Shown in pieces: positions 15,446 through 64,000 of a stretch of DNA of 64,000 bases. The stretch's first letter is position 1. Every line of letters starts with the position of its first letter. The stretch is taken from assembly GCF_965363235.1 (NCBI RefSeq), contig NC_134845.1:25360524-25424523 (forward strand), given 5' to 3'. This DNA comes from Mytilus galloprovincialis. Lineage: Eukaryota; Mollusca; Bivalvia; Mytilida; Mytilidae. Under the pieces are notes generated by a model, which saw only the letters and a list, made by a program, of their open reading frames with translations, did not search any database and was not told the DNA's origin. Both the position numbers and the translations under genes were made by a program.

Positions 15446-15448
15446 GTT

Positions 15449-31000: not shown

Positions 31001-34000
31001 AAATAATTCGAAATTTGGGATATAGCAGTCTACATCGTGTTACAATCTGTTGTAATCTTAATCGTTATAAAAGCAAACAACTGGGTCAACAAAGAAAACC
31101 AAAATAGCATGAATACATTGTTGAGACAAAGCAAATAAAGCAAAAATGAAAGACAAGAATACAGAATATGACCATTTATAAGACAATCACACAATAGCGG
31201 GATGTATAAATACCGAGCCCGTCACAACAAATGGATCAAATAAAAAAGTGCTTTCACATTAACAGTTTGAAATATACAAAGCCAATAAGAAGAACAACAT
31301 AACACATAATTAAGATAATAAGCAACGTCAGTACTTATAATCTATTATTTAAGTCCATCATATTTATTAACAAGGTTTTTATATCATTCGATGAACTTTT
31401 AAGAAAAAAAGACGAGACGTTCTTTAACATCACTCTGGTTCCCCACACTCCTCTAAAAGCTTTGGTATCAACAGTGGAATTTGCAGAATTTTATACATGT
31501 TGCAAAAAGGTTTTTAATGTACCAATCTGCCACGAAAAACTCTTGTACTCTTATTGATAATGTTCATCATATTTAAAAGATTAAGAATACAAGTAATATC
31601 TATGTTTATTTGAAGTTGTGTGAAGGAACTTACTAAATCAGTAATGATTCTGTTATCCGTTAACATTTCAGCTAAATACAAAGCACCTTTTGGTCCTATT
31701 TCATTGTCTGTCATATCTAATATCTGCACTGTTGGATTCTCCTGTAAACACACAAACACACAGTTTGTATTATACCGGAACTTAAAAATCATATACAGTT
31801 ACAATTTTATTAAAAACAAATTGTAAGAACACTTTTAAGGAATTGTTGTTTTATGCATTACCCACATACTGATGATGTGAAAATATTAAAAAGAAAACAC
31901 GAAGATAAATATTTTTTGTAAATGATGTTTTTGTTGTTTAACTAAATTACATTTTAACCTCACAGATATTGGAAATATTTGAAATATTCTATGTAGCTTC
32001 CTTGTATTCGAATTCCTAACGGGTTAACTACTGAAACTGTCTGTATGGGCAAACTAAATAATTTCCATATGTCTTTGTTTAATTGTTGATTAAAAAAGAA
32101 AAATTATGTAAAATTAGTTTATATATACTTACAAGAAGAGCAACAGACATTGCTTTTGCATCTTTTGGACAGAGCGAACGATGCCTGACTGATACTCTCT
32201 TTTTTGACAGTTCCCGGATGAAGGATGACACTGGTGAAATGTTTAACATTTTACACATGCGCCGATATTGGTTCTCACAATAAGATGCTGGATCCTTATC
32301 TGACCTGGATTCACTTTCCTCCTCTGAAATGTATGTACTTGGTTAACAGATTATTTAGAATAAATTTAGTATTTGATGGACGATATGGACCTACACGGGT
32401 CGGTAAATAAAATTAAAGTTATTAGTGTTACGAAAGGAGTAGGTCCGGTCAGGGCCGATTTTGGCCTCAAATTTCAAGTTCATCTAACGAAAGATTTTAG
32501 ACACTTTTTAAACACTTAAGTGTCTATTTCAATTGATTCGATTAGTTTATGTGAAAGATTTTAACTGATTTAGTCCTTAAAAACGCTCCTATTCTAGCTT
32601 AAGTATGAAAATCTATCAAATATGCCCAAAAACGTCACTTTCTAGATGTTTTTTTGTCAAAAATGAAAGTGGCCGCATCCGTGTTCATCCTCAACCTAAA
32701 TATATATGATGTTTTATCATCAAATACAACTTGTCTTTCAATAAAATGAATGAACACGAATGCGGCCACTTTCATTCAAAAATTTGTCTGTATTTTATTT
32801 TTCATTTACATGTTGTACTGTTAAATCAATCATCCTTAATCAGAACGATAGTTGTATGTGTGAGTGTATGCGAGTGGGAGAGAAAGGCTGTTTATTTTTA
32901 CTTTATGTGATTACATGCTTGTTATGAGCCCTATGATTAGGAAATAAAATATCTTTATCTTTTATTTAAGACGGAAACAGTCTAAAATATAACTAAAATG
33001 CTAAAATTGTGAACATTTCAGCAATTTAGCATGACTTAATGATGTCAGTACCCGATATGTGTGCATTGTATTGTCAAAAACCGCACATATTTATGTAGCA
33101 GAAGCATTCTACTTTCCGATAAATAGCTTACGGATTACATTTTCACTATTTTGTAAAACTGCTATATTTTGGGGCCAAAAAGGGGTCTTACTGAACTTAC
33201 TCCTTTTGATCATTTGTATTTCTTTACTTAAAAAAATTGATTGATGCAGGCATTAGGAATTCTGCTAAATGATTCCAAAAAGGTACATCAAAACATTGAA
33301 ATTTGATTGGTTATCAAGTTTAAACGAGTGAGCATTATTTAAATTTTGATTTACACGAACTATGAAATCTATAAGGATATTTGGTGAAATGTTTTAAATT
33401 ACATAAAAAAAAAACACCAAAAAAAAAAAGTGATCACAAAATACAACTATTGATTTATAAAAGTAAAACTAGACCTCGTTTTTACTACTAAATACAATAC
33501 ATGAAAGCTTTCATTGAACTGCATAATATTGTGACAGAATATAACAAAAATACAAACTATGTTCCAAAATCAAATGTCAACCAGTACCCTTTCTATGCTG
33601 TACAATGAACAAGTTAAGTCGTGCATAAAACAAATAATAAGCAAAACTAAATCAACTTTTAATATCATATAAATACGATTGGTTATATCAAGGAAACTTA
33701 AAAAAATACAATAAATGTCTAAAAGCACTCTGATTTTAAACAAGAATAGTGTATGAACATGCCATTACCACAACGTCCCGCACCATATTTTAATTGTAAA
33801 ATAAATGTATACGTTTGACTCCTGCTACTGATGACGTTCTAAATGCCAAAACAGGTGATGGGGAACAGCTTTCAAGAGACGTCGTCACAAAACTTTCTTC
33901 GTAGTCTCTAAATGATTGCTTTGTGTCTACTTTTGAAGACGATTCTAGTTCAACTGAGTTTGTCCCTGTTGCCAAATCTTTTTAAACAAAGAACGATAAT

Positions 34001-37000
34001 TCTTAAAATAACAAAACTCAATAAGGTTACGAACAGTGAGATACCATTTGTCCTAAAAACGGCTTCCGTAACATTTTTTTAAATCAAAATAAAACAAAAA
34101 CGAACAGTTACAGTGAATGAAGCAGTGAGTTTTATGTTTTTACAAAGCAACACTGAATATCTATGTAATCTTGACTTAAATTATATTGTTTGTAAGCAAA
34201 TGAAAACAAAAACGTGATCGTCTAAATGTAATTATCAAGCATACCATCAAAGTCGAAATCGTCGTTGAACTCGTCAAACAAGTCTGTTAATGAAGTATTA
34301 TAGGTGTGAAACGACGATTCACATCCACCATATTCACTGTCAATAAGTGATGCTTTTCGTCGTCCAGTCCGACGTCGTGTTATGATCGCACGATTTGTCT
34401 TCCGACTGGCAACCTTGGCCTTGTTTCTGTATTTGACCGCCATGACATACGGTGATGCTGTCTGTGGTCTTTTAATAAGGCTTCGGTTATCATTCTGAAA
34501 AGCAGAGAAAATTTGTATTGATACCATATATATATAGTTAGTATATTTAAAAAAAAAAAAAACATTCATGGATTCATTATTATTCGTGAGATACCAATTT
34601 TCGTGGGTTTCGTTGGTACAGGTGAACCACGAATTAAAAAATTCAACGAATTACAATATAGGCTTTGTATGAAGATAGAGACATCCACGAAATCAAATAT
34701 CCATCAAAATGCAAGTTTTCCTCAATCTACGAAAATCGATACCCAAGAAAATAAATGAATCCACATCATTTTGACATACCTGGGTAACAGTACAGGTAAC
34801 GTTCAACATATTTTGTTAAGTTTGCTGGTTGCCACCCTGCCAATATGTTGTCATAATCGTCAAATATAGAAAACATAGCCCAATTCTATAACATGAAATG
34901 GATATATAATCATACAATACGACATGTTCTTAAAAACAAAAAAACTTTGTGAATTAAATAATGTTAACAAAATGTTTTTAAATTACTACTGTATATACCA
35001 ACTTCAAACAATATTTACTTACATTGTTGTATTTTCTCATATTGTCTTCGATACTACACGTGTTATGGTTCACGAAGTCAGGTGTAAAATAATTAGAATT
35101 ATCGAATACACAAATATCTTTAAATGCATTTAAATCCATTTTCAAAATATTATTATTTTCTCCCCATTTAAGAACTACTTAGCTATGGAACGAATGATAT
35201 AAATGTTACAGAAATTTAAAAAGAATAGCTTATAGCTGGCTTTTGTATTGATTTAACAAAATATTATTAATAAATCATGTTTTAATGTGTTATATTAATC
35301 TCTTCTATATAAATGTCAAATGGGATACACGATGTTTCTATTTTGTGGCATCACCAGGATTTTGTGGTGTCAAGTTTAAGACAAATAAACACTGACGATT
35401 TTCATTTTTGTGGCGTCAAGTGTAAGACAAATAAACACTGACGATTTTCATTTTTGTGGCGTCAAGTGTAAGACAAATAAACACTGACGATTTTCATTTT
35501 TGTGGCGTCAAGTGTAAGACAAATAAACACTGACGATTTTCATTTTTGTGGCGTCAAGTGTAAGACAAATAAACACTGACGATTTTCATTTTTGTGGCGT
35601 CAAGTGTAAGACAAATAAACACTTACGATTTTCATTTTTTGTGGCGTCAAGTGTAAGACAAATAAACACTGACGATTTTCATTTTTGTGGCGTCAAGTGT
35701 AAGACAAATAAACACTTACGATTTTCATTTTTTGTGGCGTCAAGTGTAAGACAAATAAACACTGACGATTTTCATTTTTGTGGCGTCAAGTGTAAGACAA
35801 ATAAATACTGATGATTTTCATTTTTTAGAGAAATTTAAAAGTTTGATTAGTTTGATCAATGGTTGTCTTAATTAAAAGCTGTTAATTTATGTGTCGACGT
35901 TGGCATTGAAACATTTAATATCAGTTATTAGACATGTCATCCATTTAAATATCTTTTATTATGCTTTATTGATTGATTACAGAAGAGTCAATTAAGTCAT
36001 CAGTGAATTTAGTATAGCTTTTTATACCCAGGAAACAACGAAGTGTTATGGATAGTTCGTAAGTGTCTCCTATTTCCGGAGACAGTTCATTTGAACTGAG
36101 GATAACCTTTTTATTATGGATTTCGTTTGGCCATTAAGGGATAAAAAAAAAAGTCAAACAATGACATTTTAACAGAAGATCAACTTTCAAAATCAATTTA
36201 TTTTAGCCTGTTTTTTTTGTCTTTTTTTTGTATAGATCTGCGAATAATTAATATGGAACATACAATAAGGGAAATTCGCAGTTCAGTGTTTTTTTGATTT
36301 TATTGTTTACAATACAGCTTTGTATATAACAAGCAGAAAAGTTCACAACTTTAGAAAACATAGATAACACAATTAAAACAGCATTAAATCCAATTTAAAG
36401 GAATAGAAAAACAACACACAGAAGCATGGACTATACGTCGATGTGTCCTTAACATATATATACATGACGTTTTTAACTCAAGTCCAAGTGTAAGTTTTAA
36501 CTTTGTTTCAAGTATGATTGTAAATATTGGGCGATGTGGGGTACACTACGATGCAACAAAAACCAAAAAACACAAAAGGCAATATTAAAGACATCTAAGG
36601 TGAGCATACGCCCTTAAAGAACATCTTGTCAATATACACAAATAACAACAAGCATTGAAGATATAATAAACAGCTGCGCCATGAGCGCATGATACGCCCG
36701 ACGTCTTGTGTGGAAGTTTTATACAATAATCATAAATAGTTTCAGAGAAAGTTTTAAGCAATAACCATATATTGTTTTTGAGACATGGCGGGACATGTGA
36801 AACCCCCAACCCTTTTTTTTTTTTACAAAAAACTAAATATCACTAAAATAAAATTTTGAATCAAAATCAAAAAGTATACAGATCTTTAGATTAATATAAC
36901 AAAGAAGTGTGTAAAGTTTTAAGCAATAATCATAAATTATTTTTGAGATACGGCGCGACATGTAAAAAAACCCTCCCCTGTTTAACAAAATACTCAATAA

Positions 37001-43700: not shown

Positions 43701-46604
43701 ATTTTTTTATGAAAACATATTGAAAAGTTTAAACATAAACTTATGAATAAACTCATCATAGATACCATGATTGAAATTTTGTATTTACGCGTCAACAAAA
43801 GACTCATCAGTGACGCTCGAATAAAAGTTAAAAATGCAAAACAAAAAAAGAAGTTGAAGATGAAATGATACTGGTGACCTAAAAACTATAGAGGTCAACA
43901 TATAGTCAACATACAACAATAGAAAAAGACATGAAATGTCAAACTCATTAAATTGTCTCTTGTCTAAACAAGCTTTGTATAATTAAACCCAAACTATGAA
44001 AGGTTTGGCATTAACTCAAAATTCTCCAAATAAAAAAACAAATGTCAACATGTTACACAAGACTCTATCACTGACATGTTGTCGCTTCTTTTTTTTTAAT
44101 TGGAGAATTTGGAGTTGATGCAAAACCTGGTTTGATATTGGTACATCAATTTGTGAAGAAGGGTTTTAAGCTTTTTCGTCATTTTAAAATATCTACTCTC
44201 CCTCGTTTCATCTCGGTCAGTGGAATAACAAAAAGACTAAAAAGATTTACATACATTAAAAATCAGTACAGATAAATTTGGATAAGGTTTAAAGGCTATT
44301 AGTAATAAAATCATAAGTTCAACAAAAAATATAAACAAATAAAAACACCTTACGGTTTCAAATAATTAGCTAAGTTACTTGAAGCATGTTTAAAGTACTT
44401 TGCTTGCTGGTATGAAATCATCGATACGAGTCATGTTAAGTAAACAAATTTTAATATAAGGACGAGCACTTCTGTCTTTGGTCATTTTTTTTTCATATTG
44501 AAAAGCTAAATTGACTGTCCTTCTGGTATCTTTCATCCCTCTTTTAAATCAGTTTTACATTTGTTAAAACTCATTTGAAAGTCTGTGCACTGTAAACCAA
44601 CATATTTCCATAAGCGATTTACATTCGCAATTTTCGCGAGTAGAACAATAACGCGAAAATAAATCGTCGCGAATATGTAAAACTTGTTTCTTTCCTTATT
44701 AAACTACATCAAGTAAATTAAAAAATCGCGAAGTGGGGTCGAAGGGGAGAAACGCGAAATAAATAATCGCTAAAATAAGTTGGTTTACAGTACTTATCTC
44801 GTCTGATTCATTTGTTAGAAATGGAAAGTTTCAATTTGCTGAATGCTCTTATGTGATGCTTTTCTTAAAGATCTCAGAAGAACGAAGACGATAAACGACA
44901 AAGATGGATACAAAATGATAAGAACACTAGAGAGGGGTTATCAAGAATCGCTATCACTTTTTCAAGGGTTTACAGAGTGTTGTTATAAATAAAGCTGCAC
45001 ATTCCTTATTGGCTATTATAGTACGTCATTGATCCCAGTGGCAGATACAGTGGGGGGGGGTCCAGGAGTTGGAACCCCCTTTTTTTGGACGATCAATGCA
45101 TTTGGGACATGTGGTTTGAACCCCCCTTTTGTCCTGGGTTGGGACCCCCTTTTTAAAATGGCTGGATCCGCCCCTGGATCTGTATATACATATTTGGTAA
45201 AAAATCAGTTTAAAATAATATTAGTATTTAAAAGGTAACACAGGACAAAAGGCGGAAAGTATTAAACATTTCTAAAATCCTTTAATCCAAATAAAGGCTT
45301 ATATCCACTTATTTGAACTATGGTTGATAGTTGTTTAATTGGCAATCCTACCTCATCACCTTGCTTTATATTCGTTGTAAAATTGGCATTAAAACGTGTA
45401 TATGTTTTTAAAAAATACAAAACAGTTAGTTTTAATGATTTCTTTTCAAAAATGAATAGTATACAAATTGATATTTTCTATAAAAAGTTTAAAAAATGAT
45501 TATTTAATTCATATATCTGGATACGTCGCGTAAAAAGAATATTTAGACGCAAGGTTAGTTACCACAATTTATTGAAAAAAATATTGTGTTTTTTTTTAAT
45601 ACAAAGAAACAAACACAAAAAGGCACGACATATATATTGCCATCGAAAAAGGGGAAGAATAATGGGCAAACTGACCGCTTAACAGGAAGAAGAAAGCTGT
45701 GCATACTGAAATATTTATTTACCAAATAAAATTATAAAGGAGGTTACGTTTTATAATATACTTATAATCTCCTGTAAAGGTAATATGCTTGAAACAAATC
45801 TTATAGTTGAGAGTATTTACTATTGACTCAAGAAAATTAGAATATCGGTATAAAAGATTTAGAGAAAGGAGAGAAAGTGTTAGTATGTGCACGAAAGGGA
45901 TACAAATTGTCTTATATTTCCCGGCCAGAATGTTTAATTTTTTTTAAATTTTATTTAATACATTGTCTCGGATATCAAAAATTATTTGGTGCCAAGAAAC
46001 GTTGTGGAATAGGTGAAAATTACTGTATTTCTATAAACATCTAAACCTCGTGTATACAAAACATGTAGAGAAAAAAGTATCTTCAAATAAAAAATGTATA
46101 TAAATATAGGTAGATATAGGAAGATGTGGTAAGCGTGCCAATGAGACAACTCTCCATCCAAGTCACAATTTATCAAGATAAACCATTATAGGTCAAGATA
46201 CGGTTTTCAACACGGAGCCTTGGCTCACAACGAACAGCAAGCTATAAAGGGTCCCAAAACTAAAAGTGTAAAACCATTCAACCGGGAAAACCAACGGTCT
46301 AATCTATATAAAAAAAAACGGAAATCAAGAAACACTCATGAACCACACCAACGAACGACAACTATTGAACATCAGATTCCTTACTTAGGACAGGTGCAAT
46401 CAATTACATCTGAGTTTAAACGTTTTATGCTACCAAACCTTCACCCTAATATGAAACAATAGTGTAACATCACAACATAGAAAGACACACTATAAAATAT
46501 CAATTTTAATCAATTTGGATATAACTTATGTGACTAGTTCTTACCTGTGACTTTTCTGTCTTAGATTTTGGTGCAGAAAGTGGTCGAGCTAAAGCAATAT
46601 CCAT
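19066..46604 (-). CDS. LRRC74-like leucine-rich repeat protein with C-terminal EF-hand pair, 14 exons
   Basis: Exons (minus): 46604-46545, 34494-34245, 33977-33813, 32323-32133, 31741-31634, 30207-30114, 29661-29612, 29044-28963, 28444-28359, 27113-26919, 26318-26223, 25427-25164, 20059-19974, 19555-19066. All have GT/AG ends, and phases chain exactly to 738 codons plus TAG. Residues ~223-460 are ribonuclease-inhibitor-type LRRs (LDMTDNEIGPKGALYLAEML, LEELDLSWNHLRFDGADAIA, LKKLDISWNGFSMRGCESLA). Residues 530-541 (DKDGSKSLDLSE) and 566-577 (DDDDSGEIEYAE) are canonical calcium loops. The tail is Lys/Glu-rich and probably helical. The N-terminus is Ser/Arg-rich and probably disordered. The LRRs and the DNP-rich region after them resemble LRRC74A. 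Function in this family is poorly known. The first exon (ATG in GGACCATGG) is the least certain: it is linked only by phase and position, across a 12-kb intron. Confidence 0.8.
20115..20400. repeat. degraded copy of the R6 foldback repeat
   Basis: Shares TTATTATTCGTGG and TTTCGTGGATTTCGTTGGTA with the better copy at 34563-34768. In the intron between exons 25164 and 20059. Confidence 0.6.
21340..21580 (+). repeat. dispersed mussel repeat R3
   Basis: Contains TCATAAATCGATTAAGAGAA and CCTGACTTGGTACAGG. The rest of this 5.1-kb intron (20060-25163) holds little besides repeats. Confidence 0.65.
22513..22640 (+). repeat. 44-bp tandem duplication
   Basis: The unit starting TTTGGAACATTTGTCTGTAA occurs twice in full, followed by diverged partial copies. 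Confidence 0.8.
22641..24649. other. intronic DNA without recognised features
   Basis: AT-rich unique-looking sequence of the LRR gene. No exon, tandem array or inverted-repeat element seen. Confidence 0.4.
24650..25085 (-). repeat. dispersed mussel repeat R3, longest copy
   Basis: Minus-strand copy containing GTACCAAGTCAGGAATATGG at one end and AACAGCGGTATACTACTGTT at the other. It has about 200 bases of inner sequence absent from the shorter copies. It stops only ~80 bases from the splice donor of exon 25427-25164. Confidence 0.65.
27312..27595 (+). repeat. dispersed mussel repeat R1
   Basis: Contains AGAAGATGTGGTATTATTGC, CAATGAGACAACTATCCACA and TCACCGTACGGCCTTCAACA. Other copies or pieces: 40977-41160, 46118-46400, 47128-47220 (+); 5335-5425, 50560-50680, 62440-62580 and 62690-62800 (-). 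Confidence 0.75.
27722..28020 (-). mobile_element. tRNA-derived SINE
   Basis: The minus strand begins GAGAGCCGTAGTGTAGTGGT and continues TTAGTGCATCGGAC, a tRNA-like A box. CTTGTTCGATTCTC about 30 bases later fits a B box. A ~200-base non-tRNA body follows to near 27722. It lies in an LRR-gene intron in the gene's own orientation. The 102-codon frame on the other strand is spurious. Confidence 0.75.
29380..29545 (-). repeat. dispersed mussel repeat R2
   Basis: Minus-strand copy with ACCAAATCAGGCATATGACA and TTTTGCCATTTGATTATG. It ends about 65 bases before exon 29661-29612. Further R2 copies on the plus strand lie at 30230-30420 and 30760-30930. Confidence 0.65.
30230..30930 (+). repeat. two R2 repeat copies in direct orientation
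   Basis: Copies at 30230-30420 and 30760-30930, each with CCGAACTCC-type starts, GGAAAGTCCCTAATCAAATG-like middles and a CTGACTTGGTACAGGCATTT-like motif. About 340 bases of AT-rich DNA separate them. Confidence 0.65.
32432..33207. mobile_element. ~780-bp non-autonomous DNA element with terminal inverted repeats
   Basis: The left end GAAAGGAGTAGGTCCGGTCA and the complement of the right end, AAAAGGAGTAAGTTCAGTAA, match with few differences; both continue into TTTTGGCC. Inside is a second inverted pair: GAAAGTGGCCGCATCCGTGT and its near complement about 85 bases on. It has no transposase frame and lies in an LRR-gene intron. Confidence 0.65.
34563..34768. mobile_element. R6 foldback MITE
   Basis: Ends ATGGATTCATTATTATTCGT and AAAATAAATGAATCCAC are complementary, with internal repeated CCACGAA/TTCGTGG motifs. 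Occupies the gap between exon 34494 and the candidate exon ending at 34780. Confidence 0.65.
34780..35139 (-). CDS. two coding-looking exons of uncertain ownership
   Basis: Exon 35139-35023 starts with ATG (MDLNAFKDICVFDNSNYF) and ends at AAT|GTAAGT in phase 0. Exon 34885-34780 reads on in the same frame (IFDDYDNILAGWQPANL) and ends at CAG|GTATGT in phase 1. Both are open only in this frame and have good splice sites, so they look like real exons. However, the next LRR-gene exon (34494) must be entered in phase 0, so they cannot join it at its main acceptor. Options: an alternative promoter using a weaker internal acceptor (before CATCACCGTATG), an unseen micro-exon, or a separate small gene. 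Confidence 0.45.
35355..35822 (+). repeat. 46-bp minisatellite, about 10 copies
   Basis: The unit GTGTAAGACAAATAAACACT plus GACGATTTTCATTTTTGTGG plus CGTCAA repeats with almost no change; two or three units have one extra T and a T for G. There are no spacers, so this is not CRISPR. It lies about 220 bases upstream of the ATG at 35139. Confidence 0.95.
36660..37702. mobile_element. pearl-like (Helentron-type) element with ~160-bp tandem cores
   Basis: The anchor AAAAAGTATACAGAT recurs at spacings of about 160, 161, 162 and 164 bases (anchors near 36881, 37041, 37202, 37364, 37528). These cores are followed by a GACA/GACG tetranucleotide run at 37618-37651 and a conserved right end containing CGTCCCGTCAAAATTTTGAC. 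Left flank, ~160-bp cores, ACGG-type microsatellite and right flank match the bivalve pearl family described from oysters, later grouped with Helentron-associated elements. No protein is encoded. Confidence 0.75.
38242..38487 (+). CDS. candidate small secreted peptide, 81 aa, no recognised family
   Basis: An open frame starts MILRFWFVLFTCCLFWANTQ, which has the shape of a signal peptide with cleavage around residues 18-20. The remainder is basic with three cysteines (GSHCRND, YVSCILK, KDKCIY). TATATAAA lies at 38208-38215, too close for a normal 5' UTR. ATTAAA follows near 38578. It lies in the first intron of the LRR gene on the opposite strand. It could be an orphan peptide, exon 1 of something larger, or chance. 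Confidence 0.25.
   Translation: MILRFWFVLFTCCLFWANTQPFTVRILLRQDTPVHFHNRRNGSHCRNDALPNLILKTDKFIHIAPLRSFYVSCILKDKCIY
38595..39180 (+). repeat. diverged direct duplication
   Basis: GGAAGGGCAGAC and TTTTCATCATCCAACTTGA at 38595-38700 recur in the same order at 39030-39145 (GGAAGGGCAGACACGAAAAT, TTTTTGTCATCCAACTTGAT). No coding frame. The surrounding 39.2-40.5 kb shows nothing further. Confidence 0.5.
40560..40800. repeat. low-complexity T and A runs
   Basis: A T/C-rich run near 40560-40600 and two long A runs (about 40664-40688 and 40767-40796). They could be tails of degraded retroposons, but no body is recognisable. Confidence 0.7.
40843..41165 (+). repeat. R5 fragment followed by R1 fragment
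   Basis: R5: GGGGTGAAAGATACCAAAGG and AATAAACTGACAAGGCCATG (a minus-strand piece is at 44505-44550). R1: AGAAGATGTGGTATGATTGC and ACCGTTCGGCCCTCAACAAT. Both are repeats I recognise as frequent in mussel DNA. Confidence 0.65.
41800..41960 (+). repeat. dispersed mussel repeat R2
   Basis: Contains AAAATACTGAACTCCAAGGA and TCCTGACTTGGTACAGGCAT. It is followed at 41960-42060 by AATAAGATAAGATAAATTTT, possibly the reversed tail of a LINE remnant. Confidence 0.65.
42238..42495 (+). repeat. two diverged copies of an ~80-bp repeat
   Basis: CAACAGACACCAAGGGACGA ... CAATCCTCCTCGTATCTGAC (42238-42312) and CAATAGACACCAAGGGGCGG ... CAGTCCTCCTCGTGTCTGA (42420-42484) share both ends with a variable middle. 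Confidence 0.6.
43740..43870 (-). repeat. decayed retrozyme fragment
   Basis: The minus strand has GCGTCACTGATGAGTCTTTT, the first half of the hammerhead core, but the GAAA side is gone. Flanks ATACCATGATTGAAATTTTG match the array at 59-60 kb. Confidence 0.65.
44004..44128. repeat. foldback element
   Basis: GTTTGGCATTAACTCAAAAT ... CTCCAA and its near complement TTGGAGAATTTGGAGTTGAT enclose about 70 bases, which themselves contain CAACATGTT and GACATGTTG. Confidence 0.6.
44589..44792. mobile_element. MITE with ACTGTAAACCAAC termini
   Basis: Ends ACTGTAAACCAACATATTT and AAATAAGTTGGTTTACAGT are inverted. The interior is rich in CGCGAA/TTCGCG motifs. No coding capacity. Confidence 0.75.
45035..45175. 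mobile_element. MITE related to 16174-16346
   Basis: Begins CAGTGGCAGATACAGTGGG, shares GTTGGAACCCCCTTTTTTTG and GATCAATGCATTTG with the 16-kb copy, and ends GGCTGGATCCGCCCCTG. GATCC/GGATC next to each end may be part of the target site. Confidence 0.6.
46118..46400 (+). repeat. dispersed mussel repeat R1
   Basis: Contains AGGAAGATGTGGTAAGCGTG and CCAATGAGACAACTCTCCAT. It lies just downstream of exon 46604-46545 on the gene strand, within intron 1. The 80-codon frame on it is not a gene. Confidence 0.65.
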
Positions 46605-49366: not shown

Positions 49367-49508
49367 AACCGAGACTTAAGATATGATTTTTTGCTCATAC
49401 CATTTTATTGGATAAGTAAATTTTCTTTGTTAAAATATTTCTTAAATGCCCTCAGGCCATCTTGTCTTTGTCACTTCTTTATCTGGATTATTCGCACCAA
49501 GTGACACA

Positions 49509-51784
49509 ATGTCTATTGAGGAAAAATTCCTTGAATCTTTGAGGTCTAAATTCGAATCGGGGAAAACAAGGAGCATATACCCTAGAGTAAAGTACCATGA
49601 TCTTTTGGCAAAGATTAAACTTTTGGAATCATCAGAAAAGAAATTGACAAAAGATTACTACAATTTAAGAAGGTATGACATTTTTAACATTGGTGGTTTT
49701 GAGAGGTTGATAACTAAAGTCAGCGAGAATGACGAGGGAAATTTCAAAATTTATGTCTTCCTAGAGGAACTCTATGGTATTTTGGAAAAGGCACATAAAG
49801 AAACAGGTCATGGCGGCAGATATCGCATGATAAAACAACTAAATAATGGATATGCTAACATTTCACGTGATGCAATTGAATTATTTCTGTCACTTTGTGA
49901 AAATTGCAATATGAAAAAAAACATATAGGGAAAGGAGTAGTAGTGAAACCCATTTTATCTTAAGACTTTAACAGTAGAGGACAAGTTGATTTGATGGATT
50001 TTCAATCAAACCCAGATGGAAACTATAAATTTATTATGGTAATTCAAGACCACCTTACAAAATTTTGTAACATTAAAGCCCTTACCTCAAAATGTGCATC
50101 AGAGGTGGCTTTTAATCTAATTGAAAAGAATTCAGCTCTAAACAAAGGCATTGGACGGTCCCCCTGTGAAGCCTTATTTGGTAAATGTGCAACAATTGGA
50201 TTAACATCAGAAACCAAAATTCCGAAAGAAATATTGATGACCTTAGAAAAGGAAGAGGACTTACTTAAGCTCCAGACAGAGTCTGTAAATGATCAACCTG
50301 TAACTGAAAATAACTGAAAATAAAACAGAAAACATTGTCGATGCCTCTGATATACCAGAATCTATTGCAGAACCAAATGTGGAACCTTCTACTCCAATCA
50401 CTGATGAAACGCAAAAGGTAAGTTGAAAATAGTCTCAAAAATATTTAAAAAAAACGACTCTTTAATCCTGGCGGGAGCTTGAACTAAAGTACTTCCATGT
50501 AATATATAACAGATAAACCACAGGAATGATATTCGGAGCTTAAGAAAAAAAGAGTCTGCTTACTATGAGTTTTTGTTGAAGGCCATATGGTTACCTATAG
50601 GTCTTATCTTATATACTATTCTGTCTCTGGCGGACAGTTGTCCTATTGACAAGCATACCATATCTTCGTATTTTTAAATTGAGTGTTTGGTCATTTTGAA
50701 CAAAAACACTTTATTACCACAAAACTGTAATTTTAAAAACTGATGTATGACCACACCAAATGATTTTTTTTTTACCTTATTATTTATGGAAACTATTTTT
50801 CAGGATGTCTTACAGTGCTATGTATGTGAAAAGGATACATCTGGAGCTCATATGTGTATTAAATGTGACAAACACATTCATGTTATATGTGGTACTACTG
50901 TAAGTGAAGAGGGATACGGTTCAAAGGTGGTATGTCCAAATTGTAAAATTGATACCAACAGAGTTCGACATCGTTCTGGAGCCATGGACAGTCAACTGAA
51001 GCAGGCAAACACTATGATAGCCAGGAGCAAAAAGGAACTAGGGACGGCAGAAGTTGGGCAACCAGTTGCCGTACCAATACCTATGTTTGATAGAGGGAAG
51101 GGTGACAGTAGAAATTTACTCGGCCGAGTCATTGAGGTAAGATATTTAATCAAAAGTTTGACTGCATCATTTAATATGTCATGTTTATTAAATACTAAAC
51201 AGAAAGAAAACCAGTACATGTAAATATGTTTATATTAATGTAGGAAGGGGGTTATGGGACCAGGCCCCTCCCCCACTTTATGAAAAATCCAGAATCTGCA
51301 CCTGACGAAAATCAGATGCGGATTAATGCCACAAAGACAGTTGAAAATCACCATATGCAACACGAATTCATTTCATAATTCGCAAAATGCAAATACCTAA
51401 TTAATTCTACTGTCAGATATAATTCTTTATCGATATTTTAATGAAAATAATCAAACTGCCTGCAAAAGAATTTTATCTGTATTTTTTCAGGTCAATGATA
51501 AGGGAAATGCTGTTGTGGCTACAAGATTTGGACAACTTCTAGGAACATTTGGAACAAATGAGATGGGAATATGTAAACAAAATTTAATTCTGGAAGAGGA
51601 AATTAATTGTGAAACAACTTTAAGTGTACGTGAGGCAGCAACCCATCAGTCATTATCCGGAGGTCAAGGATTTTTCAAATGTTCTTGTAAAACTAAATGT
51701 TTAAGTAACCGGTGCAAATGCAAGAAAAACGGGAGAAAGTGCAATAGTCGGTGCCACAGTTCAACAACTTGTGATAACAAATGA
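49509..51784 (+). pseudogene. Ginger2/KRBA2-type transposase, incomplete
   Basis: Pieces in order: 49509-49928 with an HHCC zinc finger (HKETGH ... CENC); 49991-50417 starting MDFQSNPDGNYKFIMVIQDH, the start of an integrase core, then running directly into the region after the core (GIGRSPCEALFGK); 50804-51136 with a Cys/His finger (CYVCEKD ... CPNCK) and PVAVPIPMFDRGKGDSRN; 51491-51784 with a CXC-type tail (CKCKKNGRKCNSRCHSS) and TGA. Introns 50418-50803 and 51137-51490 have clean GT/AG sites. The stretch that should hold the second and third catalytic acids is missing, so this copy could not act by itself. The same protein type was domesticated as KRBA2 in mammals. Confidence 0.75.
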
Positions 51785-53766: not shown

Positions 53767-56700
53767 ATGACTATATTATTGTTGTTGACAATTTATAGTT
53801 TCTTAAATGCTTCTTTAAGTGAAAAACGACTTTTGATAGATGAACCAGATGTTCTTGCACAACGTCTTGGTATTCTTGAGACTCTAGTTCACCAACAGGC
53901 AGAGACGATTAAACAACAGTCAGATACTATCAGTAATCTAACTTCAATACTGTCTGTTCTACAGGATTGTAAGTACGCAGTATTGTTACCAGTAATTTAG
54001 CATCAACACTGTCTGTTCTAAAGGATTGTAAGTTACCAGTATTGTTACCAGTAATTTAACGTAAAACCTGTCTGTTCTACAGGATTGTAAGTACGCAGTA
54101 TTGTTACCCATACCATATGTTTGTTCTAGAGGATTGTAAGTACGCAGTATTGTTACACATACCATATATGTCTACTTGCTAATTAAGTCCAACCGAGACT
54201 TTAATTTAACGTCAAAACCGTCTGTTCTACAGGATTGTAAGTACGCAGTATTGTTACCAGTAATTTAACGTCAAAACTGTCTGTTCTACAGGATTGTAAG
54301 TACGCAGTATTGTTACCAGTAATTTAACGTCAACACTGTCTGTTCTAAAGGATTGTAAGTTACCAGTATTGTTACCAGTAATTTAACGTAAAACCTGTCT
54401 GTTCTACAGGATTGTAAGTACGTAGTATTGTTACCCATACCATATGTTTGTTCTAGAGGATTGTAAGTACGCAATATTGTTACACATACCATATATGTCT
54501 ACTTGCTAATTAAGTCCAACCGAGACTTTAATTTAACGTCAAAACCGTCTGTTCTACAGGATTGTAAGTACGCAGTATTGTTACCAGTAATTTAACGTCA
54601 AAACTGTCTGTTCTACAGGATTGTAAGTACGCAGTATTGTTACCAGTTATTTAACGTCAAAACTGTTTGTTCTACAGGATTGTAAGTACGCAGTATATTG
54701 TTACCGATACCATATTTTTGTTCTAGAGGATTATAAGTACGCAGTATTGTTACCCATACCATATATGTCTACTTGTTAATTAAGACCAACCGGGACTTTA
54801 ATTTAATACCAAAATTGTCTGTTCTACAGAATTGTAAGTACGCAGTATTGTTACCCATACCATATATGTCTACTTCTTAATTAAAACCAACGGAAATATC
54901 ATTTCAAATTTACTGCATTGTTTCTTATTACATCACTGTCTTAGAAAATAGTTTAGTAACATATATTTGTACTTAATGTTTATGTCTTAAACCAGAAGTC
55001 TACAAGCTGTGTACCACTTCAGTGGTAGTCATTAAAAATAAACAGATTATACAAGACAAATTAAATTGCATCAATAGTCACTAGAGAACATATCTTATAG
55101 ATTATCTTTTGTCAAACTATAGTAATAACACAAGCTACTGTATATATGATTTTGATGGGGATGGGCGCTCTCAACCCTGTTTAAACCCACTACATTAAGC
55201 TTATATATATAATGCATATTGAGGCAGAGAAGCTGTTAATGTATCTAAGCTTGCTGCTTCTGACGCGATCCTTATTGATTTCATATAGTTTTTTGTTAGT
55301 ATCTGTGACGGTAAGTCTTACGATATATATATATATATTTCAGCAACAGTTTGCTTATGTTAGGAGCAGTATAATGAAATAATTTAAACGTTGCATTACT
55401 GTACTGTATTTCAGCAATTGGCTCAACTTTCGTTCATTGGGGACGAAGTGATTGTCAGTCGAAAGATACAGAACTTGTTTACCCAGGTATTTTCATAATC
55501 ATAACGGCTATCATTACAGGTCTGTCAAACTGAAACTTCCCGCATAAAACAACCAAGGAGGATTTATAAGCCATTATGACTGATCCCGTCTACTCGTTTG
55601 TTGCTCTTTCAATCATTTATTATGTTTAATTGTTTCCGAAACAGTATCCATTATAAAAGTGATTGGACGAATATCTTTTTGGCAATTAAATTTCTAATCA
55701 AAACTGAAATTTTAACAGTTTTGCATGTTTATAGTGCAATTTTAAAAAGAAAATATCATATTCCTTTTTTTGGTAAAATATAACATACGTTGCCATATTT
55801 AAGTTTGCTGATACATAATTATGCCTTAAAAGTTTTAAAAACCCTTTGTGTCGAGCATCTTATGGACGTTTCGTCCCCGAGGGTATCACCAGCCCAGTAG
55901 TCAATGGTGTTGATAAATAATATGGTCAATTTTATAATTTTCCTGTTTACAAAACTTTGAATTTTTCGAAAAACTAAGGATTTTCTTATCCCAGGCATAG
56001 ATTGCCTTAGTCGTAATTGGCACAACTTTTTGGAATTTTGGATCCTCAATGCTCTTCAACTTTGTTCTTGTCTGGCTTTATAAATATTTTGATATGAGCG
56101 TCACTGATGAGTCTTATGTAGACGAAACGCGCGTCCGGTGTACTAAATTATAATCCTGGTACCTTTGATAACTATTTAAACCACTGGGTCGATGCCACTG
56201 CTGGTGGACGTTTGGTCCCCGAGGATATCACCAGCCCAGTAATCAACACTTCGGTGTTGACATTGATACCAATACTATGGTCATTTCTATAATTTTCTTG
56301 TTTACCATACTTTGAATTTTTCGAAAAACTAAGGATTTTCTTATCCGAGGCATATATTACCTTAGCCGTATTTGACACAACTTTTTGGAATTTTGGATCC
56401 TTAATGCTCTTCAATATTGTACTTGTTTGGCTTTATAAATATATTGAAATGAGCGTCACTGATGAGTCTTATGTAGACGAAACGCGTTTCTGGCGTACTT
56501 AATTATAATCCTGGTACCTTTGATAACTATTTAAACCACTGGGTCGATGCCACTGCTGGTGGACGTTTGGTCCCCGAGGGTATCACCAGCCCAGTAATCA
56601 ACATTCGGTGTTGACATGAATATCAATAATGTGGTCATTTTTATAATTTTCTTGTTTACAAAACTTTGAATTTTTTGAAAAACTAAGGATTTTCTTATCC

Positions 56701-57617
56701 CAGGCATAGATTACCTTAGCCGTATTTGGCACATCTTTTTGGAATTTTTGATCTTCAACTTTGTACTTGTTTGGCTTTATAAATATTTGATATGAGCGTC
56801 ACTGATGAGTCTTATGTAGACGAAACGCGCGTCTAGCGTACTAAATTATAATCCTGGTACCTTTGATAATTATTATAACATTATTTTCATTTTACAGATC
56901 TCTAGTCGGATTGTTTTAATATAATACCATTAAATTTATGTGCACATTTTGAAATGATTATATACCCAGAGAAGCTCAACAGCATTTCAAATGAAAAATA
57001 CCCCATTCGAGTTAATAAAAAGATATTTAGCTGCAACTGTGTTTTCGAATCTGGGAAACTTCTGTCAATTAGTTATCATCATTATTACTATTGGTATGTA
57101 ATTTAATATACAAGTATATAAAAACCTATTGTCTAATCATGTAGGTTTTGTTGGAGGAGGACATTACAATGAGACTGGAGCATCACCTGAGTTCGTGTGC
57201 TTGCCGACTGACCCTAAGCTAAGAGAGACAACAGGAGGGTATGATTATGGCAGAATGTATGGAGCAGAATATGGTACAAACTTCTGGGGACAACATCCTA
57301 ACCCTATCAACAACGAACTACCATGCGCCGTTTGTAGAAGCCAGCGTACGTCCACTACCATCATGATTCCAGGAAAAGACACGTGTCAGACTGGATGGAA
57401 AATTGAATACCATGGATACTTGGGATCCAGTCACCATTCATCTACTTCCGGATCAATGTATATATGTGTTGATATAAATCATCAAAGTGTACCGGTAGGG
57501 GGAAGTAGAAATGATGGCGGGAAACGTGTGGTCAATGTAGTAGCAGCATGTGGATCGCTTCAGTGTCCTCCGTATACAAATGGAGACTCATTTTCGTGTG
57601 TGGTTTGTTCAAAATAA
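53767..57617 (+). CDS. secreted short-chain-collagen-C4-like protein with coiled-coil stalk, three exons
   Basis: Exons 53767-53968, 55415-55486 and 57145-57617, phases 1 and 1, 248 aa plus TAA. Residues 1-18 (MTILLLLTIYSFLNASLS) form a signal peptide. Residues ~28-66 (LAQRLGILETLVHQQAETIK, then NLTSILSVLQD) look like a trimeric-type coiled coil where relatives may have collagen repeats. The rest is the conserved globular domain: STFVHWGRSDC, TELVYPGFVGGGHYNETGA, VCLPTDP, YGAEYG, LPCAVCRS, TTIMIPGKDTCQTGWKIEYH, YICVD and a CGSLQCPPY ... CVVCSK end, with paired cysteines. I recognise this as the family annotated short-chain collagen C4-like in mussels and oysters, expanded and of unknown exact function. 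AATAAA overlaps the stop codon. Confidence 0.85.
53951..54870 (+). repeat. tandem ~60-bp repeat that copies the exon 1 splice donor
   Basis: The unit TCTGTTCTACAGGATTGTAA followed by GTACGCAGTATTGTTACC starts inside exon 1 (last codons plus donor) and recurs about 14 times. A larger block with GTCTACTTGCTAATTAAGTC repeats at 54170 and 54497 (offset 327), so there is a higher-order period. Most copies keep GGATT|GTAAGT. Confidence 0.9.
56098..56141 (+). ncRNA. hammerhead ribozyme, array copy 1
   Basis: GCGTCA, CTGATGA, stem II GTCTTATGTAGAC, GAAA, CGCGCG, TC, then CGGTGT. The core is intact. The first stem I pair is a mismatch (C for T after the cleavage site), so it may be weaker. Predicted cleavage after 56135. 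Confidence 0.8.
56453..56496 (+). ncRNA. hammerhead ribozyme, array copy 2
   Basis: The core CTGATGA ... GAAA and stem I GCGTCA/TGGCGT are intact. Stem III reads CGCGTT, so it is no longer self-complementary, and the triplet before cleavage is TTC. Predicted cleavage after 56490; activity doubtful. Confidence 0.7.
56796..56839 (+). ncRNA. hammerhead ribozyme, array copy 3
   Basis: CTGATGA, stem II GTCTTATGTAGAC, GAAA and CGCGCGTC are intact; stem I GCGTCA faces TAGCGT with one mismatch. Predicted cleavage after 56833. Confidence 0.8.
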
Positions 57618-57619: not shown

Positions 57620-58930
57620 GTCTTGCAATCTCATGTTTCAATAAGTTTGTATATCTCTTATTTATATATAGATTATACAACTATAAGAGCCAGAAATAAT
57701 CGCGATAATTATTAACTGAAAAGGACGGCGTGCATTTTCAAATTTTCAAATTTAGTATTGAACGATAACTGTCTGAAGCAACGTGACAATGAGGGATAAA
57801 TGATTGATTGTTATTTACTCAACTTCCAGTGGCATATATTTCATGCATGCTCTGGACAAAAATAAATTTAAATGGATCCAAAAGGTAGGTATGCATATGT
57901 AAGTTACTTTCAAACATTTAAAATTGCAACAGACATCCACCAGAACCTGAAAAAAGTTGTTGGATGTGTACTGATTGATACTTCAGTCTTGGATCCATGC
58001 TTTTTTATTACTTGTTATTTGCTTTCAACTGGGTTTCGGTAACTTAGTTTAAACAATATTTTATTCAAAAAGTGCATGAAATATAATTATACAATATAGA
58101 TACAGGGATTCGGAAACAAGAAAAACTCCCTTTAAAAAAATGAGAAAAATTAGGATCATAGTATAAGAAACTCGTATAATCAAATTTTCAATTCACATTT
58201 AACATGTTTATTCTGTGTTTTGCCTGTTACTCAGAAGTCAGTTTGATCGAAATATGTGATCAACTCATTTTTTTTTATAATTATGGTTCATTAATATGAG
58301 AAATATGTAAATGTTTCAAAAATAAGGTAACATTAAATCAAAGTTTCAACATCTTAATCGACATCGTCATAAAGATAATTGTTATGGACCAAATCTCCCT
58401 GTTTCTAAAATAAATCTTTGTACAACTTTAAAAATATTTTCTTTTTCCTCATCACTGATGAGTTTACTACCTGATACTAATGTTTGTACATTATATATTG
58501 GTAGTGTAGAAATGGTTTGTGTCCTGATGAGTCTATAATTATGAATTTTCTAGCAGATAGTGTTTGCTGCTCTCAACTTGCCCACATTTACAGAGGCTGG
58601 AAAGAACAATATTTTTCTGGAAAAGTTGTTCATTTAAACCACAGCAGTTCAACCGGGGTCTGGCGTAAAGTATTTGGCCTTTTCTACAACCAGTATCATA
58701 ATATGTAGAGACTTTCTTAGTATCTCGATTTATATAATTTTAAGTGCAAATTTTGATGGATTACATCTAACATCTTGTGAAAGCCTGTTTCATTCACGAA
58801 TAACAGATGGTAGTAACTTCATGACCTCTCAATAGTGTCTATTTTGCTGTAAGGATGTATAAGGTTTGCGGTTTTGTTTATTGTTGTTCTGCGTTGTATC
58901 GATCCAATGAATTAAAAAGCCCATTTAAAA
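57620..58930. other. intergenic DNA with one short repeat
   Basis: TTACTCAACTTCCAGTGGCA and TATTTCATGCATG at 57815-57857 belong to a repeat with relatives at 39800-39840 and 48770-48810. The rest is unrecognised, and the frame at 58517 has no support. Confidence 0.4.
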
Positions 58931-58934
58931 AAAG

Positions 58935-60295
58935 TTTAAAAAAAACAAATAAAGTTGAAGAGCATTGAGGACAAAAAAGTCCTAAAAGTTTTTCCAAAAA
59001 CAGCCAAAGTAATCTATTCCTGAGGTAGAAAATCCTTTGTATTTCAAAAAGTAAAAGTTTTGAAAACAGTTAATTTAAAATTATGACCATATCAATGATA
59101 ATTCATATCAACACAGAAGTGCAGACTACTGGGCTGGTGATACCGCCGGGGAATAAAAACTCCACCAGCAGTGGCATCGACCCAGTGGTTATCAAAAACT
59201 CATCTTAGATACCAGGATTGACATTTTTTATTTGCGCCAGACGCGCGTTTCGTCTAAAAAAAAGACTCGTCAGTGACGCTCGAATAAAAAAAAAAGTAAA
59301 ATAAAATGCCAAATAAAGTACGAAGTTGTAGAGCATCTAGACCAACTATTCCTAAAAGTTTTACCAAGTGCAGCTACTGTAATCTATTCCTTAGGTAGAA
59401 AAGACTTCGTATTTAAAGAAATCAAAGTTTTGAAAACATTGCATATAACTTATGGCCATAGCAATGATAATTTATGTCAACACAGAAGTGCAGACTTTTA
59501 GGCTGGTGATACCATCGGGGAATACAAACTCCACCAGCAATGGCATCGACCAAGTGGTTATTTATAAACTCAACATTGATAACAGTATTGAAATTTTGTA
59601 TTTGCACCAAAAGCGCGTTTCGTCTACAGCAGACTCTGCCGTGAAACTCAAATAAAAAAATTATTAAAAAACAAACGCCAAAGTTGAAGAGCATTAGGGA
59701 TCAACAATTACTGTTTTTCTAAATACAGCTAAGGTATTCTATTACTGAGGCAGAAAAGCCTTAGTATTTCAAAAATTCAAAGTTATGAAAACAGCTGATT
59801 TATAATAATGACCATATCAATGATAATTAATGTCAACACATCATGCAGACTACTTGACTGGTGATAACCGCAGGGAATAAAACCTCCACCAACAGTGGCA
59901 TCGACCCAGTGGTTATAAATAAACTGATCATAGATGCCAGTATTCAAATTTTGTATTTGCGTCAGTCGCACGTGTAGTCTAAAATAGACTCGTCAGTGAC
60001 GTTCGATTATTTTTTAAAACGCCAAAAGGTTTTGCCAAATAAAGTAAGGCTATTTTATATCAGGAATGAAATATCTTCAAAAATTCAAAGTTTTAAAAAC
60101 AGTTACTTTATAATAATAACCATTTCAATGTTAATTCATGTCAACACAGAAGTGCAGACTACTGAGTTGTTGATATATTCCGGGAGTAAAAACTCAACCA
60201 GTAGTGGTACCGAACCAGTGGTTATAAATAAACTCTTCAAAGATACCAGGATTGAAATTTTGTATTGGCGCCAGACGCGCGTTTCGTCTACAATT
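58935..60295 (-). mobile_element. retrozyme tandem array, about four decayed units (antisense to array 1)
   Basis: Repeated blocks contain AAGTTGAAGAGCATTGAGGA, TGACCATATCAATGATAATT, AACACAGAAGTGCAGACTAC and CCAGTGGTTAT. Ribozyme sites fall near 59234, 59600, 59950 and 60267, about 310-365 bp apart. Only the first has a full core. Orientation is opposite to the array in the C4-like intron. Confidence 0.75.
59234..59279 (-). ncRNA. hammerhead ribozyme, CUGACGA variant
   Basis: Minus strand: GCGTCA, CTGACGA, stem II GTC-T run-AGAC, GAAA, CGCGCG, TC, then TGGCGC. Stem I pairs over six bases. CUGACGA is an accepted core variant. The stem II loop is a T run. Predicted cleavage between 59240 and 59239. 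The sites near 59600, 59950 and 60267 have lost one half of the core. Confidence 0.8.
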
Positions 60296-61402: not shown

Positions 61403-63664
61403 TTAGATAAAAATCATTGCTATAAATGTCAAAAGAATAGTATAAATTTTGATAGCTGCTACTGAGCATGCGTCGCTGTCATCATTAACAGGCAAGGACT
61501 GGCAAAATTGAGGACGATTCCCCTGTTGTTGGCATATTTCGTAACAAAACATAGGAGGATTGTTATTGTTCATACATTCTTGGACATTAGGACAGTTAGC
61601 TGGTCGGTTTGGATTATTCTGTCCACATTGAGATGGATCTGGCATATTTCCACCACCCTGTCCTCCCTGTTGTAGACAATTACAAAGATATCCGTTCCAT
61701 TTTTTCCAGTCTTCCCAACCTAAAACAGTTATATGCGATTTAGAACGATCTTGAAATCCCACAAACACTATAATATAACTTTCTAAGAGGTCTTAGACGA
61801 AAAGTATTGACAGGAATCTAAAGGAAAGTATTATCGCTTAACACTTAAGTGTATGGGATCGACGTTGTTATAGGGAACATATATTTATATGGTTTTTGTC
61901 TTGATTGGTTGCTGTTTCCTGAACATTTTTCTCAATATACCTTATCCATAACGAATTTTGAGACTACAGTTTTTTGTCCGTCAAATAAAAGGAACTACAT
62001 TACGAGTTAGCGAGTTATATGCAACAACATAAATACCTACTTTTTAGCATATCGGTTCAGGGACCAACTTTTGAAATCTTCGAAAATCCAAAATATAACA
62101 TCACGGACATTTTAATATAGATTTCTCATTTCTGTATTTCTTCAGTGCAGTAGTTGTGACGTGTCCTTTATCTCTTGATCGATGGTTTGATAAACTTTCG
62201 TCCTTTATGAACCTGCCCAATGGGCTGCTATATTTGTCATACTATTCTGCACGCCCTTCCCAAATAAAAGGCATTATAAACTACTATGTTTGCCACTTTA
62301 ACTGTTTAACACTTGACAAGGGTAAAAATGAGCAAATGGTTTCTATTTGTATCTATCTGACGAGTTCAGCCTATATAGCTGATTTTTATAGTTTGTTCTC
62401 ACTGTCAAAGGTTAGGGGAATGTTGAGCGTTAACAAACATGTTTAACCAGGCCACTTTTTTTATTTGCCTATCTCAAGTCAGGAGCATGTAATGGTAGTG
62501 GTTGTCGTTTGTCCATGTTTGTCATTTTCTTTTTCGTAAAATGTTTTGTTATAACCGTTTGTATTCTCCATTGAATTGTTTCAAAAATAAACCCATCATA
62601 AATACCGGGATTGAAATTCTATATTTGCGACAGATGCGCGTTTCGTCTACATATTGGGACCGTTTACATCTTACTATAAGGTAAGGGTTTTTCTCATTGT
62701 TGAACACCGTACGGTTATCTATAACGACTTGCATTCACTTCATTTAAACTTTGGTGGATAGTTATCTCATTGACATTGAAACCACATCTCCTTATTTTGC
62801 ACAATAACGACACAAAAAAAATGTTCGTTTAAAAGGACAGCCTTTTACCAAGTATGCGTAGGATTTCTACGTAGGATTTCTACGAATGGAACTTTATTTT
62901 CATTTGCGGGAGTTTCTCGAAGCATTGACGACCCAATGGTGGACTTCGGCTATTGTCTGCTCTTTGGTCGGGTTGTTGTCTATGTGACACACTCACCATT
63001 TCCAATCTCAATTTTACTTGTGAAAAGTCGTTATGTTTTTTAGTTTTAAAGACGTCTCCTTACAATATTCGGACATGTTTTACTTGCATGTAATCAAAAT
63101 ATACCTGCTGATGTTTTATTGGCTGGTTCACAGTTGTAGTGCAAGCCAGGCAAATTTTCTAATACGACACCCTTAAAGCATCCAAGAAAGTATGGCCATG
63201 TCTCTGTCGCATGATATCGATAGGCGCCACTGACCTCTCTGCCATGACACTCGTCAAGGTCAGTTGACGTCAACAGACCGTTAAAATCTGATGCATTTGG
63301 ACCATATATTGGAAATCCATCTAAAGCGACACCAATGAACTCGTCGACCTCTCCTTTATACAAGCAGCTATCTGGAATTTTATGATAATGATATGATCCT
63401 GCGTTTGTTGGATGGCCATCACAACTGTCAAAAGTCTCTCGTGTTTGCCCTTCAACTGCATTTTCAAGGTCAACATTTAACGGATTGAATATGGCTACGC
63501 CTGTCCTGGTAATACCAATCATGCCCATTGGGACACAACCATGCGCTCCATTATTGTATCTTGGTATTTTTGGAATACTGATGTTATAGTTTTGATCAGT
63601 TGCATCATTCGGATTAACCTTTTCCCATGGATGATCTGGAATCCCCGACGCATAAATATTATGT
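61403..63664 (-). CDS. YHYH-domain protein with Cys-rich tail and GPI signal, last two exons
   Basis: Exons 63664-63105 (enters in phase 2, leaves in phase 1) and 61719-61403, together 291 codons plus TAA. The 5' exons lie beyond the window. The YHYH domain is seen in order: HGCVPMGMIGITRTGVAIFN, CDGHPTNAGSYHYHKIPDSC, VDEFIGVALDGFPIYGPNAS, DLDECHGREVSGAYRYHATE, WPYFLGCFKG. The last exon encodes GWEDWKKWNGYLCNCLQQ, a Gly/Asn/Pro-rich part with about ten cysteines, and a hydrophobic end (IYTILLTFIAMIFI) after SDAC, typical of a GPI-anchor signal. YHYH proteins are extracellular or periplasmic, with function mostly unknown. Probably a surface or secreted protein. Confidence 0.85.
62440..63005 (-). 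repeat. R1, retrozyme and R4 fragments in the YHYH intron
   Basis: R1 pieces at 62440-62580 (AAGTCAGGAGCATGTAATGG) and 62690-62800 (AACCACATCTCCTTATTTTG). A retrozyme remnant at 62585-62660 (GCGCGTTTCGTCTACATA, the GAAA half only). R4 at 62925-63005 (CTCTTTGGTCGGGTTGTTGT). Confidence 0.65.
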
Positions 63665-64000
63665 CTAAAATGTTAAAGAATTGGTTATAATCATTAGTAA
63701 ATTCAAAAAGTCACGTATCGCTTCAGTTAACGTATTGCTTCAGTTAACGTAACTCTTCAGTTAAATACAGAACGCTAACATCTTTTTATCAAAAACAAGT
63801 AAATAGACATATGTGCAAAGTAACATGGGCACTTTTGAGTTCATTCTTCTTTCTTTTCTGTTACAGATACTATCAATAGGATCTCTTTATCACTTCCTAA
63901 TAATTTTCTTTTATTCAATGCTTCTTTGTTCTTACTCAAACAGTCCTTATTTTGAAATCGTTTTAATATATACATTCCAACCATTTACTGCATGAGCGCA
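63665..64000. other. intron of the YHYH gene to the window end
   Basis: Contains a short triplication of CTTCAGTTAACGTA-like sequence at 63720-63765. No further exon on the minus strand is visible. Confidence 0.4.

Follow-up and report, generated by a model that had tools for sequence, protein, structure and literature searches.

Intron 2 of a three-exon gene of the mussel Mytilus galloprovincialis carries a 1-kb array composed of three head-to-tail units of ~350 bp each, as judged by TRF and direct repeats, and each unit contains a hammerhead ribozyme motif. The array was found in a 64,000-nt stretch of genomic DNA, referred to below as the window. Judged from the sequence, it is in architecture (size, hammerhead type, tandem form and low G+C) a metazoan non-LTR retrozyme. 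It very probably represents a non-autonomous, mussel-type non-LTR retrozyme that was inserted into the intron as a multimer, came to lie sense to the gene by chance and has since decayed. One mismatched pair is present in the ribozyme of every copy in the array, which therefore looks more like a commonplace insertion growing old than like a functioning switch. Most likely the array is a decaying example of an element type already described, ordinary in itself and of mild interest for where it sits.

Structure of the array and its host gene

TRF reported a tandem repeat at 55863-56874 (+) with a period of 355, 2.9 copies and 88% matches, and the direct-repeat spacings between units are 342-355. 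By blastn, unit 1 matches unit 2 at 87% (55863-56179) and unit 3 matches unit 2 at 90% (feature coordinates are listed in Table 1). Tandem-query local alignment over-ran into the A+T-rich flanks and was not used to place the array ends. The period and copy number fall within the form of metazoan non-LTR retrozymes (repeats of 150-450 bp, dimer or more), and the G+C content of the array, 36.7%, is low as in retrozymes (<45-50%). Stop-to-stop stretches in the intron reach at most 86 codons on both strands, as for a non-autonomous element, and longer ones belong only to the exon 3 frame. Penelope-like element hammerheads sit within an RT-bearing element; this candidate was rejected for the intron, which has no reading frame >86 codons on either strand. 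A location on the non-coding strand was also rejected, as the Rfam matches and the gene model place the array sense to the gene.

Table 1. Features of the retrozyme array, its host gene and related copies in the window.
Feature	Position	Strand	Remarks
Host exon 1, coding part	53767-53968	+	joined frame
Host exon 2	55415-55486	+	joined frame
Host intron 2	55487-57144	+	GT...AG, 1658 nt; frame continues over the junction
Host exon 3, ending at stop codon	57145-57617	+	joined frame
Retrozyme unit 1	55838-56179	+	clearly similar from 55863 onward; upstream to ~55838 weakly and with gaps (alignment)
Retrozyme unit 2	56180-56534	+	355 bp; direct repeats, blastn, alignment
Retrozyme unit 3	56535-56874	+	340 bp; 10-bp internal deletion relative to unit 2; blastn, alignment
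Hammerhead 1	56098-56141	+	Rfam Hammerhead_1, 30.6 bits, E 0.0015; predicted cleavage after C56135
Hammerhead 2	56453-56496	+	Rfam Hammerhead_1, 26.6 bits, E 0.031; predicted cleavage after C56490
Hammerhead 3	56796-56839	+	Rfam Hammerhead_1, 28.5 bits, E 0.0072; predicted cleavage after C56833
Unlinked single 5'-shortened copy (comparator)	15443-15715	-	fully paired hammerhead 15477-15520, 33.0 bits, just below the Rfam cut-off; ends at GATAACTAT
Second, more diverged retrozyme array	58919-60293	-	blastn pieces 69-80% to unit 2
Short retrozyme-like remnants	10640-10736, 11707-11948, 12531-12576, 43749-43846, 62589-62649	all -	blastn-type similarity to units

The three exons of the host gene join into one clean frame of 248 aa and its introns are GT-AG, in agreement with the first-pass annotation, which had modeled a gene with an intron between exons 2 and 3. 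The array begins ~350-375 nt past the donor of that intron and ends 270 nt ahead of the acceptor, and the predicted cut sites lie 311-1009 nt from the acceptor. The host protein, putatively 'short-chain collagen C4-like', matched 0 Pfam families and gave a single PDB row at E 0.83. Transcripts named short-chain collagen C4-like are listed in a mussel transcriptome (PMC4581086), a match by name and not by sequence. A separate set of 59-bp tandem repeats occupies 53931-54871 (+), mostly within host intron 1, and copies the 3' end of exon 1 including its splice donor. The window contains 8 occurrences of CAGGATTGTAAGT, beginning with the one at the exon 1 donor. All of them show AG and GT separated by four bases and might thus provide decoy or micro-exon splice sites.

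Hammerhead motifs and their pairing

A search for the 24-nt core CTGATGAGTCTTATGTAGACGAAA, with one N and up to three mismatches allowed, found it at 56104, 56459 and 56802 (+) and at 15491 (-), with 0 mismatches in 4/4 matches. A chance motif was rejected, since core matches averaged 0.00 in 100 shuffles. All three array units scored below the Rfam Hammerhead_1 gathering score of 34, though with low E-values, and a scan of the window at the gathering threshold returned a sole match, 59234-59279 (-), at 35.7 bits. The sub-gathering Rfam matches point to type I hammerheads in 3/3 units; the fully paired relatives in the window reach 33.0 and 35.7 bits.

The first-pass annotation had proposed three ~350-bp units with hammerhead cores, forming a retrozyme-type array of type I hammerheads on the sense strand of intron 2. 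This proposal is supported by the TRF period of 355, by the core, which is identical in all three units, and by the covariance model suggested as a check, which matched all three at 26.6-30.6 bits with low E-values, below the curated 34. The RNA ends it had predicted, at 56135, 56490 and 56833, are exactly the C17 positions of the Rfam matches. Its description of stem I as mostly paired holds as well, with 5/6, 6/6 and 5/6 pairs in units 1, 2 and 3, yet unit 2 is short of one pair in stem III.

To compare the copies, 12 helix pairs were checked in every hammerhead, of which stem I contributes six, stem II four and stem III two. Each array unit has a non-standard pair at 1/12 positions; no such pair occurs in the hammerheads at 15477-15520 (-) or 59234-59279 (-). 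In unit 1 the mismatched pair is A.C, the basal one of stem I adjoining the cleavage site, and received no unfavourable mark from Rfam. Unit 2 has a C.U in stem III with stem I intact, and unit 3 has a C.A in stem I; in all three units the substitution that causes the mismatch is located in the 3' (substrate) strand. Three working self-cleaving sites, as suggested at the outset, were not upheld: each unit has a broken helix pair, unlike the hammerheads found near 15.5 kb and 59.2 kb. Hammerheads with one mismatch may retain some activity.

The nearest-neighbour energies of the hammerhead fold were -0.1, -2.4 and -0.2 kcal/mol for units 1-3 vs -5.7 and -6.8 kcal/mol for the fully paired hammerheads near 15.5 kb and 59.2 kb. 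These values serve solely to compare copies, because nearest-neighbour folding misses hammerhead tertiary contacts and did not favour the hammerhead fold over alternatives in any copy, the fully paired ones included. The RNA between the first two cut sites folded no better than its shuffles (z -0.41; 31/100 at least as stable), which gives no sign of a circle of special stability.

Related copies and other features of the window

The family is dispersed within the 64-kb window, with copies at 15.4 kb and 58.9-60.3 kb and shorter remnants. The second array has four unit starts (60222, 59913, 59558 and 59189, all on the - strand) in the same head-to-tail register as the intron array. It contains one fully paired hammerhead, 59234-59279 (-), which is the best hammerhead match in the window; two further hammerheads, at about 59.6 kb and 60.0 kb, have altered cores. 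Exact patterns of 30, 20 and 35 bases from the family gave 0 loci in the viral_contigs and genome_contigs collections (viral, prokaryotic), as expected for the wrong host groups and for exact patterns, which miss variants.

Several other features were noted. A reading frame at 63097-63672 (-) encodes a YHYH domain (Pfam PF14240, E 4.6e-24). The frames at 49446-49925 and 49964-50314 (+) resemble, by eye only, a broken retroelement integrase, and a 46-bp tandem repeat is present at 35360-35826 (10 copies, 97% matches). Matches to microRNA families of Rfam in the window were all far under their cut-offs; sub-threshold MIR161 matches on both strands drew attention to a long inverted repeat at 32640-32790, perhaps a palindromic transposon remnant.

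Conservation and history of the units

Among the gap-free columns, 44/327 vary among units 1-3. The hammerhead accounts for 5/44 of its columns vs 39/283 elsewhere (Fisher P 0.81), so the ribozyme is not conserved above its surroundings among the three units, as a domesticated hammerhead would be. The first 32 nt of the hammerhead are invariant and lie within a 38-nt block that is the longest invariant run in the array. The run gave a permutation P of 0.005 when gap columns were counted as variable and of 0.12 without them; selection on the ribozyme was rejected as an explanation, as the apparent signal is gone once gap columns are omitted. We took the array ribozymes as giving no evidence for selection after insertion.

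The units are 89.1-92.4% identical among themselves and 89.0-93.4% identical to the unlinked copy at 15443-15715. Three units of the second array (58919-60293) served as an outgroup, and sites with a gap, no outgroup letters or no outgroup majority were dropped; a different alignment yielded 43 two-state sites. Of 31 variable sites so classed, 27 are private to one copy: unit 2 has 13 of them, unit 1 has 7, unit 3 has 3 and the 15 kb copy has 4. The remainder comprise one site for each of three shared patterns, one of which is that of all three units alone, and one site with neither state in the outgroup. This distribution is close to a star-like history, in which the units would have split from each other at about the time they split from the 15 kb copy and then decayed singly. 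The uneven private counts (13, 7 and 3) hint weakly that the units were perhaps not identical at insertion.

The 15 kb copy stops at unit position 351 and the match of unit 3 stops at 352. These two 3' ends, together with the 5' shortening, fit target-primed reverse transcription that always starts at the same 3' end. Retrozyme target-site duplications, when present, are >4 bp. The longest flank match of the array is the 8-bp ATAATTAT, at 55815 and 56866, which does not abut the 5' end of the array and has a chance P of 0.125 in 2000 random-flank trials; the array has no convincing target-site duplication. The flank stretches compared for the 15 kb copy have no 6-bp word in common, and no target-site duplication was found there.

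Cleavage timing and expected effect on the pre-mRNA

A cloned mussel retrozyme repeat self-cleaves co-transcriptionally at ~0.1 per min (PMC7229834), which corresponds to a half-life of ~7 min. At mammalian polymerase speeds of 3.5-4.1 knt/min (quoted in PMC10919898), the transit from the cut sites to the acceptor would take 0.08-0.29 min. If the sites were as fast as the cloned repeat, the fraction cut in the time up to acceptor transcription would be 0.8-0.9% for unit 3, 1.6-1.9% for unit 2 and 2.4-2.8% for unit 1. The idea that the intron might be cut ahead of splicing thus fared poorly: with slow cleavage and a short distance to the acceptor it is unlikely even for intact ribozymes, at ~1-3% per site. 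According to earlier work cited in PMC10919898, slow ribozymes placed in introns left splicing unaffected and fast ones affected it. Given this and the low computed fractions, the array would be expected to have almost no effect on the mRNA. The intron might in principle be cut once it is excised, with release of 343-355-nt RNAs.

Origin of the array

In the preferred explanation, a multimer of a metazoan (non-LTR) retrozyme would have been inserted head-to-tail into host intron 2, its sense orientation being due to chance. In the mechanism published or proposed for the family, type I hammerheads would cut a multimeric transcript into ~350-nt RNAs, a host RNA ligase (RtcB-like) would close these into circles, and the circle would be reverse-transcribed into tandem cDNA that is inserted elsewhere. 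With one mismatch per ribozyme, self-cleavage at the intron array is probably slow or absent. Any activity left would mainly cut the intron after its excision, giving 355- and 343-nt pieces with little effect on the mRNA.

The three units could instead have arisen by DNA-level tandem duplication of one inserted unit inside the intron, without insertion of a multimer. We regard this as unlikely: the regular spacing and the lack of a clear target-site duplication agree with it, but the units are as far from each other as from the unlinked copy, and a second array of the family has the same head-to-tail register. A DNA duplication soon after insertion is possible. A quite unlikely reading is that the array is a living retrozyme source driven by the host promoter, in which the spliced-out intron would be cut at 2-3 sites and the 355- and 343-nt pieces circularised to rejoin the pool. 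Excised introns are usually short-lived, which speaks against such a source, and the broken pair of every unit involves its own substrate strand, so that no pairing of catalytic and substrate strands between units would yield a fully paired ribozyme. In its favour are the sense orientation, the three sites in series, the invariant first 32 nt of the ribozyme, and the abundant, heterogeneous retrozyme circRNAs of mussel tissue (PMC7229834). The more specific case, a host intron acting as a retrozyme transcription unit whose mismatched trimer is cut slowly after excision and whose 355- and 343-nt pieces are circularised, seems very unlikely; if it were true, the splicing of an ordinary gene would feed a ribozyme-based mobile element.

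It is hardly credible that the array has been domesticated to adjust the splicing or output of its gene, in the manner of amniote intronic ribozymes. The mammalian Cpeb3 ribozyme belongs to the HDV-like class and is not a hammerhead. It indicates that an intronic ribozyme is able to modulate its host mRNA (PMC10919898), and the sense orientation in a short intron would suit such a role. Against domestication, the ribozymes have no excess conservation among units and a mismatch in each, and the 0.08-0.29 min to the acceptor compares with a half-life of ~7 min, whereas the timing of Cpeb3 is described as matched (PMC10919898). With mismatches in its ribozymes and a slow cleavage rate in the family, the array has probably hardly any effect on the host pre-mRNA. 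The locus adds one example to a published kind of element, and the sense multimer, the well-bounded intron and the fully paired copies nearby make it a usable natural test of the effect of retrozyme hammerheads on a host pre-mRNA.

Comparison with known systems

Retrozymes that agree in size, hammerhead type and tandem form, and that give circRNAs, were described from mussels in 2020 (PMC7229834), and intronic hammerheads were already known. We found no report of a retrozyme array in a mollusc intron in the literature covered, in which subscription papers are mostly absent, and in the paper on mussel retrozymes the word 'intron' appears once in the main text, within a reference title (PMC7229834). 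Such an array fills a narrow gap and is not a new kind of thing. The genome of M. galloprovincialis has ~5000 hammerhead copies, usually in 350-390 bp repeats (Cervera and de la Pena, 2020; PMC7229834). A 353-nt monomer studied there is circularised by RtcB to ~30% in vitro vs ~1% by self-ligation, and the authors propose as a model that the element is mobilised when the circle is reverse-transcribed (PMC7229834). The intron array shares with these elements the type I hammerhead, the tandem repeats of ~350-390 bp and the low G+C, and the published ones are without LTR. It differs in having a mismatch in all three units. The likeness described here is one of architecture; a search of the literature for 4 stretches of family sequence gave 0 papers.

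In Schistosoma mansoni, all SmPoMuc genes have a hammerhead between exons 9 and 10; the essential G12 is present in group 2 only and the others are probably inactive (PMC2576457). These are likewise retroelement-type hammerheads, as we label them, in the intron of a protein gene, with one ribozyme across a gene family vs a trimer in a single gene here. The amniote hammerheads of the RECK and CTCL genes are also type I and intronic, but they are described as highly conserved and domesticated (PMC6155905), whereas the mussel array has no excess conservation among units. The Cpeb3 ribozyme is likewise a self-cleaving RNA in an intron; its half-life of 2-3 min is matched to a distance of 9931 nt (PMC10919898), in contrast to the 311-1009 nt, the family rate of ~0.1 per min and the mismatched ribozymes of the mussel intron.
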